Below, in pieces: positions 15,969 through 20,150 of a stretch of DNA of 64,000 bases; position 1 is the first letter of the stretch; each line of letters opens with the position of its first letter. Position numbers and translations under genes: made by a program. The stretch covers positions 1 to 64,000 of the forward strand of contig JAOTTD010000005.1 of the NCBI GenBank assembly GCA_029864565.1. Reading direction: 5' to 3'. This DNA comes from Thermoplasmata archaeon (GTDB lineage: Archaea; Thermoplasmatota; Thermoplasmata; UBA10834). The notes below the pieces were generated by a model that saw nothing but the letters and a program-made list of their open reading frames with translations, was not told the origin of the DNA and ran no database searches.

Positions 15969-16340
15969 CTACTTCCTGAGAGCCTTCAGCTTCCCAGCGA
16001 GCTCTTCCAGTGCGGGCTTTCCCTTGGCCGCGTCGACAATCGCAACAGCAGCCGTCGGCTTCTCTAGGCCGCATGCGTTACCCAACTCAGCCTTCGCGGG
16101 AACGTAGGCGTATGGAACGGCCTTCTCCTCGCATAACGCCGGGATGTGCATCAGAATCTCCGGTGGGGAGACATCCTCCGCCATGACCACGAAGACGGCC
16201 TCGCCGCGCTCGACGAGTTTCGTGACTTCGTTCGTACCCTTCTTCACGCTGCCGCCGTCCCTTGCCAGCTCGACGATGTCGTAGGCTTTGTCCACGAGCT
16301 CCTTGGGCATCTCGAACTTGACGAATATTGGCTTTGCCAT
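15969..16340 (-). CDS. rpl7ae: Ribosomal protein L7Ae, kink-turn binding
   Basis: L7Ae binds kink-turn RNA in 23S rRNA, box C/D and H/ACA guide RNAs and RNase P. The 123-residue protein has the family motifs: GGSVKKGTNEVTKLVERGEA near 30-50, VVMAEDVSPPEI for RNA contact, and LCEEKAVPYAYVPAKAELG near 89-107. It starts at ATG 16340 with a strong AGGAGG site 7 nt away. The leader of its mRNA contains a box C/D-like kink-turn immediately before that site (see the separate entry), suggesting that L7Ae controls its own translation. It is first in L7Ae-S28e-L24e-ndk. Confidence 0.96.
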   Translation of the reverse strand: MAKPIFVKFEMPKELVDKAYDIVELARDGGSVKKGTNEVTKLVERGEAVFVVMAEDVSPPEILMHIPALCEEKAVPYAYVPAKAELGNACGLEKPTAAVAIVDAAKGKPALEELAGKLKALRK

Positions 16341-16347
16341 ATCGATA

Positions 16348-16377
16348 CCTCCTTCAGGTGCTCACGCACCATCATCA
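16348..16377 (-). promoter_or_regulatory. Candidate kink-turn plus Shine-Dalgarno in L7Ae leader
   Basis: In the mRNA sense the leader contains a box C-like AUGAUGG, a stem GGUGC closed by a GUGA tetraloop, the complement GCACC, then a box D-like CUGA. Aligning the two arms gives G-C, U-U, A-G and G-A pairs exactly as in a box C/D kink-turn, with the 5-bp stem as the non-canonical-side helix. The canonical-side helix is weak (one U-A pair, then mismatches). CUGA (16354-16357) directly abuts the ribosome site AGGAGG (16348-16353). L7Ae binding would be expected to block ribosome access. The pairing is seen in sequence; the regulation is inferred from L7Ae biology. Confidence 0.6.
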
Positions 16378-16424
16378 TTCACGGGCTCCTTCGATTCAAA
16401 AGAGCAAGTGGCAGTAGATGGTCG

Positions 16425-16435
16425 TTGTATAAAAG
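16425..16435 (-). promoter_or_regulatory. TATA box of the L7Ae operon
   Basis: The minus strand reads CTTTTATACAA here, a canonical archaeal TATA box. Transcription would start near 16404, leaving a leader of roughly 64 nt that includes the candidate kink-turn. Confidence 0.65.
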
Positions 16436-16735: not shown

Positions 16736-16848
16736 TATACGCGCGGTCGCAACCGCGAGAAGCGAGGCGGCGGTCCAAGGAGCCAGTCATTTGGGACACC
16801 GTGCGAGAAAGTATATCTTGTGCTTAATTGCTCACCCCTCTTGTTCAA

Positions 16849-18759
16849 ATGGCCGATAAGATTACGCGTTTCCAGCCATCGGGCAGTAGGACTGTCTCCC
16901 GAGTGGACGCCTTCGTCCTGGATCTCGCCCGAGAAGCGGGTGTCTCAATTGAATCGATATGCGGAGGCTCGGGAAGATGCGGGAAGTGCAAGGTCGCAAT
17001 AACGGCTGGTGAACAGCGGCTATCCCGTATGAACGACAATGAACGGATGTCTCTAAGCGAGGAAGAGATGGAGACGGGACTGCGACTCGCATGCCAGGCT
17101 CAGGTCGTTTCGGAAGGCGATATTACCATAGACGTCCCCGAAGGAAGTAGGAGAGGACTCCACAGACTGCTCGCCTCGGGCATCGAACCGGCCATCCCCC
17201 TCTCCCCTGCCATAAGCAAGGTCTTGTTGAAGATACCTCCGGCGACATTGAAGGATATCAGAGCCGACGACGACAGGTTGCTGGAGATGCTGAATGCGGA
17301 GGCAGCAGTGATGGCGAACATCGCCCCCGGAATCCACCAACGCATCCCGAATGCGTTGAGGGAGAAGTCATGGGTGGCGACGGTGACGCTCTACAGGAAA
17401 GAGGAACTGATAGGCATAGATCCAGGAGACACCACGAAGGAGATACTCGGCGTGGCCGTGGATGTCGGAACAACGAAGGTGGTGGCGTACCTCCTCGACC
17501 TGGTCACCGGAGATACCATCGGGACGGAGAGCAAGCCCAACCCTCAGATTCCGTTCGGCGAGGACGTGATGTCAAGGATAACTTACGCGATGACAAATGA
17601 TGACGGCCTCGCTAAACTCCAGCAGGCGGTGATCGGGGCGGTGAACGCACTGATACGACAATTGTGCGACAATGTGGGGAAAAGCCCGATCGACATACTG
17701 GAACTCATCATGGTGGGGAACACCGCCATGCACCACATGTTCTTCGGCATTCCGCCGATTCATTTGGCGTCCGCGCCATATGCTCCAGCCGTCAGGAAAT
17801 CGATATCGGTCGAACCGAATCATCTCGGAATAGACATCTACCCTTTCGGAAAGGTTGGTTCCCTGCCCAACATTGCGGGCTTCGTTGGAGCGGACGCCGT
17901 CGCCGTCCTATTGTCGTCGGGACTGTACGATGACGACAAGATCGGCATGATGATAGACATCGGCACGAACACGGAGATAATAGCGGGAAGCAGGGACGGA
18001 TTGATCAGCTGCTCGTGCGCGTCGGGTCCGGCCTTCGAAGGAGCGCACATCAAGCATGGCATGAGGGCAGCGACAGGGGCCATAGAGCGTGTGTGGATGG
18101 ACGCGTCTGAGAAAGATGTCCGCGTCAGAACTGTGGACGATGTGCCACCGAGAGGCATCTGCGGCTCCGGAATTGTGGATGCTGTCTCCGAAATGTTCAG
18201 ATGTGGCATCATCTCAGCCTCGGGAAAGATCAACTCGTCGTCCGAATGGCCTGGCCGCATCAGAGAAGGACCGGACGGCAAGCTCGAATTCGTGCTCGTC
18301 GCCCAGGAAGGAAAGGGCGAAGGAGAGAGGGATGTATCCGTGACGCAGCACGACGTACAGGAGATACAGCTAGCAAAGGCTGCGATTTTCACTGGGGTGT
18401 CGACCCTGCTTAGAAAGCTTGGATTACGGTCTTCCGACCTGTCATGCATATACGCCGCAGGAGCGTTCGGCACATACGTGGACGCGTCCTCGGCCATAAG
18501 TATCGGCATGTATCCGGACATACCGCCGGAGAGAATCAGGTTCGTGGGAAACGCCGCCGGCTCCGGAGCCCGCATGGCTCTGAAATCTGTGGAAGCGCGC
18601 AGACTTGCCGACGAACTATCACGCAAGGTCGAGTACATTGAGCTCGCTTCGGAGGAAGACTTCCAGTCGGAGTTTGCGAAGGCGATGTTCCTTCCACATC
18701 GAGAATTGGACAGGTTTCCCACTGTCGCACGCGCGATCGGTCAAGCGGCCGACCGCTGA
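16849..18759 (+). CDS. RACo-like corrinoid activator, 2Fe-2S plus ASKHA
   Basis: The 636-residue protein has an N-terminal plant-type 2Fe-2S domain (C38, C44, C47 and C82 in ICGGSGRCGKC and LACQA), a linker, and a large DUF4445/ASKHA domain with phosphate motifs DVGTTK (205-210) and MIDIGTNTEI, plus a C-terminal AAGAFGTYVD segment. This is the architecture of RACo, the ATP-dependent reductive activator that returns oxidised corrinoid proteins to cob(I)amide. RamA-type activators of methylamine methanogens have a different iron-sulfur module. No corrinoid protein or methyltransferase is nearby, so the client is unknown. The start at 16849 is about 35 nt after a TATA-like GTATATC. Confidence 0.85.
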   Translation: MADKITRFQPSGSRTVSRVDAFVLDLAREAGVSIESICGGSGRCGKCKVAITAGEQRLSRMNDNERMSLSEEEMETGLRLACQAQVVSEGDITIDVPEGSRRGLHRLLASGIEPAIPLSPAISKVLLKIPPATLKDIRADDDRLLEMLNAEAAVMANIAPGIHQRIPNALREKSWVATVTLYRKEELIGIDPGDTTKEILGVAVDVGTTKVVAYLLDLVTGDTIGTESKPNPQIPFGEDVMSRITYAMTNDDGLAKLQQAVIGAVNALIRQLCDNVGKSPIDILELIMVGNTAMHHMFFGIPPIHLASAPYAPAVRKSISVEPNHLGIDIYPFGKVGSLPNIAGFVGADAVAVLLSSGLYDDDKIGMMIDIGTNTEIIAGSRDGLISCSCASGPAFEGAHIKHGMRAATGAIERVWMDASEKDVRVRTVDDVPPRGICGSGIVDAVSEMFRCGIISASGKINSSSEWPGRIREGPDGKLEFVLVAQEGKGEGERDVSVTQHDVQEIQLAKAAIFTGVSTLLRKLGLRSSDLSCIYAAGAFGTYVDASSAISIGMYPDIPPERIRFVGNAAGSGARMALKSVEARRLADELSRKVEYIELASEEDFQSEFAKAMFLPHRELDRFPTVARAIGQAADR

Positions 18760-18941
18760 GGCCGCTGGCAATCGAACATCACTCTACGAATGGTTGACGC
18801 TTTCGAATTTTGTGCACTCTGTTGAAAAGTTTTAAAACCCCTTTCGAAGGACCCAGCGAAGTTTAAGTAACGATCCCACCATCAGGGTAGCGCCGAGGTT
18901 CAGATGCTGTGCATCGGGGCCCGGGGGCTAATGTGAATACG

Positions 18942-20150
18942 ATGAAGAGTGTTGTTCTAGGCGTTGGAGCAGTCGGTTCTGTCATAGCTGATGTCCTTGC
19001 TAACTCCGAGGAGTTCGATGAGGTGGTTCTGGCGGACATAGACCTTGAAAAAGCGGAAAGGATGAAGAAGAGAATCTCCAAGGACAAAGTATCGGCGATG
19101 AAGATAGATGCTTCGGACACAAAAGGCATGGCCGAAGCGTTCAAAGGAACGGATTTGGTGCTGAACGGGGTCATCCCTCGTTTCAACTTCAACATCATGG
19201 ACGCGTGCCTGATGGCGAAAGCCAGCTACGCAGACATGGCCAGCGACATATTCCTTTCCAAAGAGAAGCCTGGAGAGATCGTCAAAGAGCCGCCAATGCA
19301 GTACCAGGCGCGCAAGTACGATGAGGAGTACAAGAAAGCCGGAATAATCGGGATGCTGGGCATCGGCTGCGACCCAGGAGCGGTCAATGTGTTCGCAAGG
19401 ATGGGCGCTGACCGAATGGACAGGGTCAAGAACATACTAGTTAGGGACGGCGACAACGGCTACGTCGAGGGATACGATTTTGCGCCGATGTGGTCTCCGG
19501 AGACGCTGATTGAGGAAGTGCTGATGCCTCCGATGATCTACAAGGACGACCATTACAGAAAGGTCGAACCGTTCAGCGGAAAGGAGGAGTTCGAGTTCCC
19601 TGAACCGGTCGGGAAGCTTCCGGTATACAACGTGGACCACGAAGAGCAGGAGACGCTTCCGAAATACATCGGTGAGGTCCTCGGCAAGGGCTGCGACTTC
19701 TGCGACTTCAAGATACACCTGGGTGACGATTATGTCGACGCGATCAAAACAATGGGCATGATAGGTCTTGATAGCCCTGAGAAGATCAATGTGAAGGGAG
19801 TCATGGTGGCTCCAAGAGATGTTGTCACGGCATGCTTGCCGGACCCCGCCACAATCGGCGACAGAGCCAAGGGTGACCTCGCCCACGGGACGATAACCAC
19901 TGGTGTGAAGGACGGAAAGGAAGTGGGGTACTATATCTACACGTCGATGAACCATCAAGATTGTTGGAACAAGTACAATCACAGCGCCACTGCATACACT
20001 GTTGGAGTGCCCATCGCTATAGCTGCGATTCTGTTCGCTCAAGGCAAGATAGGGCAGACTGGTGTGTTCCCACCGGAAATGCTTGACCCGAAGCTGTTCG
20101 TAGAGATGCTGCCCAAGTACGGCATGAATTGCATCGAGAAGAGGCTGTGA
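18942..20150 (+). CDS. Saccharopine dehydrogenase-family oxidoreductase
   Basis: The 402-residue protein begins with a Rossmann fingerprint (VVLGVGAVGSVIADVL) followed by an acidic residue after the second strand (ADIDLEKAERM), so it binds NAD(P). The rest resembles the saccharopine dehydrogenase / homospermidine / carboxynorspermidine synthase superfamily, including a GIGCDPGAVNVFARM segment. Substrate cannot be assigned: lysine-related amino acids or polyamines are both possible. GTG at 18933 with a GGGGG site 5 nt upstream is an alternative start adding three residues. A TATA-like GTTTAAGTA lies at 18861-18869. The gene stands alone between the RACo-like gene and an MFS transporter. Confidence 0.75.
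   Translation: MKSVVLGVGAVGSVIADVLANSEEFDEVVLADIDLEKAERMKKRISKDKVSAMKIDASDTKGMAEAFKGTDLVLNGVIPRFNFNIMDACLMAKASYADMASDIFLSKEKPGEIVKEPPMQYQARKYDEEYKKAGIIGMLGIGCDPGAVNVFARMGADRMDRVKNILVRDGDNGYVEGYDFAPMWSPETLIEEVLMPPMIYKDDHYRKVEPFSGKEEFEFPEPVGKLPVYNVDHEEQETLPKYIGEVLGKGCDFCDFKIHLGDDYVDAIKTMGMIGLDSPEKINVKGVMVAPRDVVTACLPDPATIGDRAKGDLAHGTITTGVKDGKEVGYYIYTSMNHQDCWNKYNHSATAYTVGVPIAIAAILFAQGKIGQTGVFPPEMLDPKLFVEMLPKYGMNCIEKRL

Follow-up and report, generated by a model that had tools for sequence, protein, structure and literature searches.

The window, i.e. the whole stretch of 64,000 nucleotides analysed here, carries on its minus strand the gene encoding L7Ae (eL8), which is followed on the same strand by the genes for S28e, L24e, Ndk and aIF2. 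The identity of the L7Ae gene was established by its match to the profile TIGR03677, which scored 154.9 bits where the cut-off is 134.6. The k-turn-recognising residues N37, E38, K41 and R45 of the protein are invariant across 10 relatives and correspond to the Asn, Glu, Lys and Arg residues which read the G.A pairs in A. fulgidus L7Ae (PMC6298567). The transcript start was predicted near position 16405 from a TATA-box-like element upstream of the gene; of the 84 cases counted, 69 have a GCTC element that follows the TATA box at a distance of 21-23 nt. The divergent neighbour on the plus strand (16828-18759) matches Pfam RACo_C_ter (E 4e-95) and encodes a corrinoid-protein reactivator of the RACo type that carries a 2Fe-2S domain; a saccharopine dehydrogenase-like gene (18909-20150) lies beyond it.

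Directly upstream of the L7Ae gene, the minus strand reads, from 16376 to 16348, GAU, GA, U, GGUGC, GUGA, GCACC, U, GA and AGGAGG. The first-pass annotation had described a box C/D-like kink-turn (k-turn) here, and its stem, GUGA loop and CUGA box were found exactly as it had spelled them out. The alignment of the non-Watson-Crick positions that it gave (U-U, A-G, G-A) could also be read in the sequence: the hairpin combines tandem G.A/A.G pairs, a U.U at 3b:3n, a 5-bp stem and the GUGA loop. The D-box-like CUGA abuts the Shine-Dalgarno (SD) sequence AGGAGG, as had been claimed, and the spacing between them is fixed in relatives. The interval originally assigned to the element (16348-16377) does hold this k-turn, but the complete leader motif reaches further, from 16385 to 16347 on the minus strand (CCCGUGAAUGAUGAUGGUGCGUGAGCACCUGAAGGAGGU). 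The parts of the leader are listed in Table 1, where primed positions denote the proposed outer k-turn discussed below.

Table 1 Features of the L7Ae leader and gene, in the order of transcription
Feature	Position	Strand	Remarks
TATA-box-like TTTTATA	16428..16434	-	Read from the sequence
5'-terminal hairpin GCUCUUUUG/CGAAGGAGC	16385..16405	-	9-bp helix in the MFE and centroid folds
Putative outer C-helix, 5' strand CC	16384..16385	-	Would pair with SD GG (16349-16348); C and C in 37/40 leaders each
Putative outer bulge CGU (consensus NRU)	16381..16383	-	L1' free (0.12 bit), L2' purine, L3' U in 38/40
Putative outer k-turn GA (1b', 2b')	16379..16380	-	38/40 each
AU between the k-turns	16377..16378	-	3b' variable; 4b' U in 37/40, pairing with A16353
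Inner k-turn bulge GAU	16374..16376	-	Sequence and conservation
Inner k-turn GA (1b, 2b)	16372..16373	-	Sequence and alignment
3b U (16371) and NC stem GGUGC / loop GUGA / GCACC	16357..16371	-	Covariation at 5/5 pairs
Inner k-turn 3n U and GA (2n, 1n)	16354..16356	-	GA = 16355-16354
A (4n') and G (3n')	16352..16353	-	4n' A in 36/40, pairing with U16377; 3n' variable (0.52 bit)
SD core GAGG	16348..16351	-	Would supply outer GA (2n', 1n') and C-helix GG; spacing GA-AN-GAGG fixed
L7Ae (eL8) gene	15969..16340	-	ATG at 16340; first in the cluster L7Ae-S28e-L24e-Ndk-aIF2

L7Ae genes were collected from 60 related genomes by their protein only, and the leaders were then read. In an alignment of 31 leaders the inner stem varies in sequence yet stays paired (GGUGC, GACGC, GAUGC, GUUC, GCCC, GAUGU, UUGCC and others), and RNAalifold recovered it de novo and unprompted. 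Both-sided compensatory changes occur at all five pairs, and 98.7% of the cells in the stem are paired, compared with 77.4% in the shuffled and 25-44% in the slid controls. The same covariation was seen in 19 leaders from outside the family of the window. A covariance model built from these 19 leaders alone found the window leader as the sole significant site in the 64 kb (45.5 bits, E 2.3e-10), the runner-up reaching 13.3 bits. Across the genome of 1.93 Mb, a loose motif pattern had a single occurrence, and its reversed control had none. In 300 genomes of the class, a listed L7Ae gene could be assigned to 134 strong matches. Every one of these precedes its gene on the same strand; the distance is 74 nt in one case and 5-16 nt in the other 133. 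Matches extend to other classes of the phylum, including Poseidoniia. Given the covariation, the match of the family-excluded model, the L7Ae-linked matches and the occurrence in other classes, we take the leader element to be genuine and specific, and to be old within the phylum. The search for conserved C/D pairing in relatives, which had been proposed as a check of the site, thus came out clearly in its favour with respect to the stem covariation, the family-excluded model and the 134 matches upstream of L7Ae, and the k-turn and its position at the SD, like the autoregulatory reading of the leader, are well supported by conservation.

A search of Rfam with the window and the leader gave no family above its gathering score in the leader; a weak match to sot0042 (E 0.69) was dismissed as chance. 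The leader resembles the box C/D k-turn of archaeal sRNAs in its RUGAUG(A/G) and CUGA boxes and in the U.U at 3b:3n. It differs from box C/D sRNAs in its location in an mRNA leader and in lacking a C'/D' pair and a guide element. A box C/D guide sRNA was rejected as an explanation, as the set of C, D', C' and D boxes with guide stretches is absent and the leader of about 65 nt has k-turn elements only.

The basic L7Ae leader k-turn is already known in archaea and is not novel here. In Sulfolobus acidocaldarius, RIP-seq, gel-shift and reporter assays have shown that L7Ae binds a k-turn with a GAU bulge in the leader of its own mRNA and that the SD is occluded (Daume et al. 2017, PMC5539422), and autoregulation by a leader k-turn was proposed for most of 121 archaea in the same study. 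The L7Ae-leader complex of A. fulgidus has been crystallised and studied by in-line probing (Huang et al. 2019, PMC6298567). Among the published L7Ae leaders, strong leader conservation was reported for the Sulfolobales only (PMC5539422; PMC6298567), and the word 'Thermoplasma' is absent from the main text of Daume et al. (PMC5539422). The features of these leaders, i.e. position in the 5' leader, a 3-nt bulge with tandem G.A pairs and an NC stem, and an adjoining SD, are all present in the window. The likeness extends to the gene, the inferred ligand, the GAU bulge, the location of the SD beside or inside the k-turn, the weak C-helix, a −1b:−1n pair other than C:G and the presumed OFF-switch logic. 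Under the sequence rules for k-turns that are unfolded without L7Ae, 3b is not C, 3n is not G and −1b:−1n is not C:G. In the window, −1b:−1n is U:A and 3b:3n is U.U, which fits these rules, but the NC stem is predicted to be stable alone, and many relatives carry C at 3b or G at 3n.

The weakness of the canonical helix had been named as the main doubt about the site. It is no mark against membership of this group of leaders, since a weak C-helix is the rule in those published. Watson-Crick pairing does fail there save for one U-A pair: a plain C-helix was rejected, positions 8-40 being unpaired in 24 of the 31 leaders whereas the bulge-adjacent U9-A39 is invariant. This failure led us to the reading of the region as a second k-turn. 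The upstream bases and the SD fit an outer k-turn, and what appeared as a weak canonical helix of the inner k-turn is probably this second k-turn, a feature which is new to our knowledge. In the window, the proposed outer G.A and A.G pairs join 16380-16379 with 16351-16350, and between the outer and inner k-turns there follow a free pair (A.G) and then U-A (16377-16353).

Conservation was assessed on 40 distinct leaders anchored on the inner motif only, since a UGA-based core pattern had biased the conservation of the columns. The outer upstream bases (16385-16377) are nearly as conserved as the inner k-turn. Upstream of the outer CC, a purine preference was observed; from −16 on, the signal decays to values of about 0.04-0.3 bit. 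The leaders follow the grammar CC-NRU-GA-NU-GAU-GA-N-stem-N-GA-AN-GA-GG, in which the rule of the upstream strand, NRU-GA-N-U, repeats the inner rule GAU-GA-N-stem; two sets of a 3-nt bulge with tandem G.A pairs at matched spacing are thus present at the level of sequence grammar. The full tandem grammar was found in 99 of 115 unique leaders that had been obtained by protein and not by leader, and under a separate rule in 73/77 of the subset from the named genome_contigs. A third C-helix pair is G.U (80 leaders), A-U (13) or, where the SD reads GAGGC, G-C. The U-A pair between the k-turns is replaced by U.G in L134, L251 and L252, and in a genus represented by L161 and L171-L173 each strand is one nucleotide longer (AAU/AAU). 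We take the grammar counts, the third pair, this replacement and the added nucleotides as independent support for the outer k-turn. The outer C-helix consists of two Watson-Crick pairs only and these show no covariation of their own because both are nearly invariant. The function of the SD by itself accounts for the GG; it leaves unexplained why CC, UGA and U are conserved.

The published L7Ae leaders are described with one k-turn each, unlike the phylum-wide consensus reported here, which would add a second k-turn using the GA and GG of the SD. The window leader also differs from them in its stable NC stem: the inner stem is predicted to be stable on its own (−9 kcal/mol), unlike the wholly unstructured A. 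fulgidus leader, and this counts against the proposed switch. Two same-strand k-turns only four pairs apart, the G.A pairs counted, may also clash sterically. A double k-turn in the leader of L7Ae was not reported in any of the open-licence papers found by literature searches.

A double K-turn module of two neighbouring k-turns with L7Ae as the ligand was reportedly described in euryarchaeal RNase P RNA by Lai et al. in 2017. It is like the leader in both these respects and unlike it in belonging to RNase P RNA and not to an mRNA leader. When the P12 region of the RNase P RNA of this genome was read by hand, the two-GA grammar was not found there. In an engineered duplex, two inverted k-turns joined via their NC helices bind two L7Ae molecules and adopt a horse-shoe shape (Huang and Lilley 2016, PMC5058347). 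In contrast to this duplex, the k-turns of the window have both bulges on one strand.

A closer counterpart of the engineered duplex was seen in the leaders of the sister family f10 (L191-L220), which lend the outer k-turn its strongest support and read CC-CGU-GA-GCC-GA-[stem]-GCU-GA-CGC-GAGG. All 30 fit the form CC-CGU-GA-NNN-GA-[stem]-NNU-GA-NNN-GA-GG; GCC stands against CGC in 27 of the 30, and one leader has GCA/UGC, a compensatory change. These leaders can be parsed as two inverted k-turns which would face each other across the shared short GCC/CGC helix, with GAGG inside. The engineered duplex is artificial and has ten pairs between the loops, compared with seven in f10. A model of the f10 form matched 59 of the 300 class genomes, all of them f10, and beside L7Ae wherever the coordinate lists overlap. 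Since most pairs are invariant and the covariation test was consequently weak, the value of f10 is architectural: an outer, SD-containing k-turn appears to be the feature common to the tandem and the f10 architectures.

On these grounds we consider it likely that the leader is an L7Ae-binding autoregulatory element of two stacked k-turns, the inner one and an outer one which contains the SD. The inner hairpin would form alone, nucleate folding and present a half k-turn as the primary L7Ae site. As long as free L7Ae is scarce, the outer part would stay open and the ribosome could bind. L7Ae in excess of its rRNA and sRNA sites would complete the inner k-turn first, thereby fixing the U-A pair and placing the GA of the SD opposite the upstream GA; the outer k-turn could then fold as well, perhaps together with a second L7Ae, and the SD would be locked. 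The expected outcome is less synthesis of L7Ae and, through the tight spacing of the genes, probably also of S28e, L24e, Ndk and aIF2. In Kt-7, a U.U at 3b:3n results in poor folding with ions alone and in folding with L7Ae (PMC5058347), and by analogy the inner U.U would suit a protein-dependent switch. More tentatively, and with the balance of our judgement slightly against it, the L7Ae leaders of the phylum may be cooperative two-site switches, in which two L7Ae molecules would fold two k-turns with the SD supplying the outer sheared G.A pairs and C-helix, and the two architectures (same-strand tandem and inverted) would have arisen for the same purpose.

The 5'-terminal hairpin begins at the predicted transcript start and buries an SD-like AAGGAG. 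Its last two bases (C16385 and G16386) are also needed by the outer k-turn, so that the two structures would compete; that this competition favours the open state is speculation. As a universal part of the leader the hairpin was rejected, the GCTC 5' arm being present in 68 of 107 leaders and missing from the others, and it is best regarded as a lineage-specific accessory.

The simplest alternative to the stacked arrangement is a regulator with a single k-turn, in which only the inner part folds, the SD is blocked by its closeness to the fold and by a loose C-side, and CCNRUGANU is kept for another reason such as extra protein contacts, 30S contacts or a loop-E-like extension. Published drawings of these leaders do show a lone k-turn with a weak C-helix (PMC6298567), which in S. 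acidocaldarius is a single G-C pair, and the near-invariance of the outer pairs gives no covariation to speak for them. This explanation nevertheless appears unlikely to us, as the upstream columns repeat the rule NRU-GA-N-U exactly, the SD-side GA lies at the matching spacing, and the outer part persists both where f10 rebuilds the inner part and where the two strands lengthen together. The repeated UGA boxes could instead serve a switch of register, one L7Ae toggling between two mutually exclusive k-turns of which one hides the SD. The strands of nearly all leaders have the composition for it (UGA-N-UGAUGA on the b strand and GA-AN-GA on the n strand), and steric crowding would favour a single protein at a time. 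Both GA pairs are, however, spaced as for joint formation, and in the inverted architecture such toggling is impossible because the k-turns share no bulge strand; we regard it as rather improbable.

Readings without a k-turn-binding protein fare much worse. The inner stem and the 5' hairpin would fold without protein, as expected of a plain hairpin or thermosensor whose likeness to C/D boxes is fortuitous, but the non-Watson-Crick G.A pairs are invariant while the stem bases vary, and the element sits at the gene of the k-turn-binding protein itself, which makes a coincidence of this kind very improbable. That the upstream conserved bases represent a short coding sequence or alternative in-frame starts is hardly credible: an SD-like GAAGGAG followed by GUG/AUG codons does occur upstream of the k-turn, but it is buried in the 5' hairpin, and loops of 3, 4 and 5 nt together with the stem changes break the frame between close relatives.

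With the stacked k-turns as the preferred reading, the concealment of the ribosome site would have a structural basis, as the SD would form part of a k-turn and not merely adjoin one. The element of the L7Ae feedback switch is confirmed here with strong covariation in a phylum apparently unexamined in the two main papers (PMC5539422, PMC6298567). Binding of two L7Ae molecules, should it occur, would give a steeper response than a single site, and the published single-k-turn leaders would then merit re-reading for an overlooked second motif. The tandem and inverted architectures might also be ready-made parts for L7Ae-based gene circuits.

The families f4, f14 and f18 are without the element. 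In f4 (L037, L041, L045 and L181), a Watson-Crick helix CCUGUG/CACAGG over part of the SD replaces both k-turns, which suggests that regulation was lost or altered. The leader of f18 (L221-L245, 26 genomes) is down to about 20 nt, in which AGUGAAGGAGG is conserved, and contains the SD only and no k-turn; the feedback switch seems to have been lost there. A strong match to the leader model (G135:C3:1340-1415, L182; E 6e-5), with no L7Ae gene in the 600 bases retrieved there, was observed in a family otherwise without the element. No L7Ae relative was found in the viral contigs searched. The plasmids searched contained two haloarchaeal L7Ae copies, both without the motif: an L7Ae-S28e-L24e block on the Natrinema plasmid CP031304 (L168) and an unannotated L7Ae-like reading frame on the Haloarcula plasmid NZ_CP010531 (L169).
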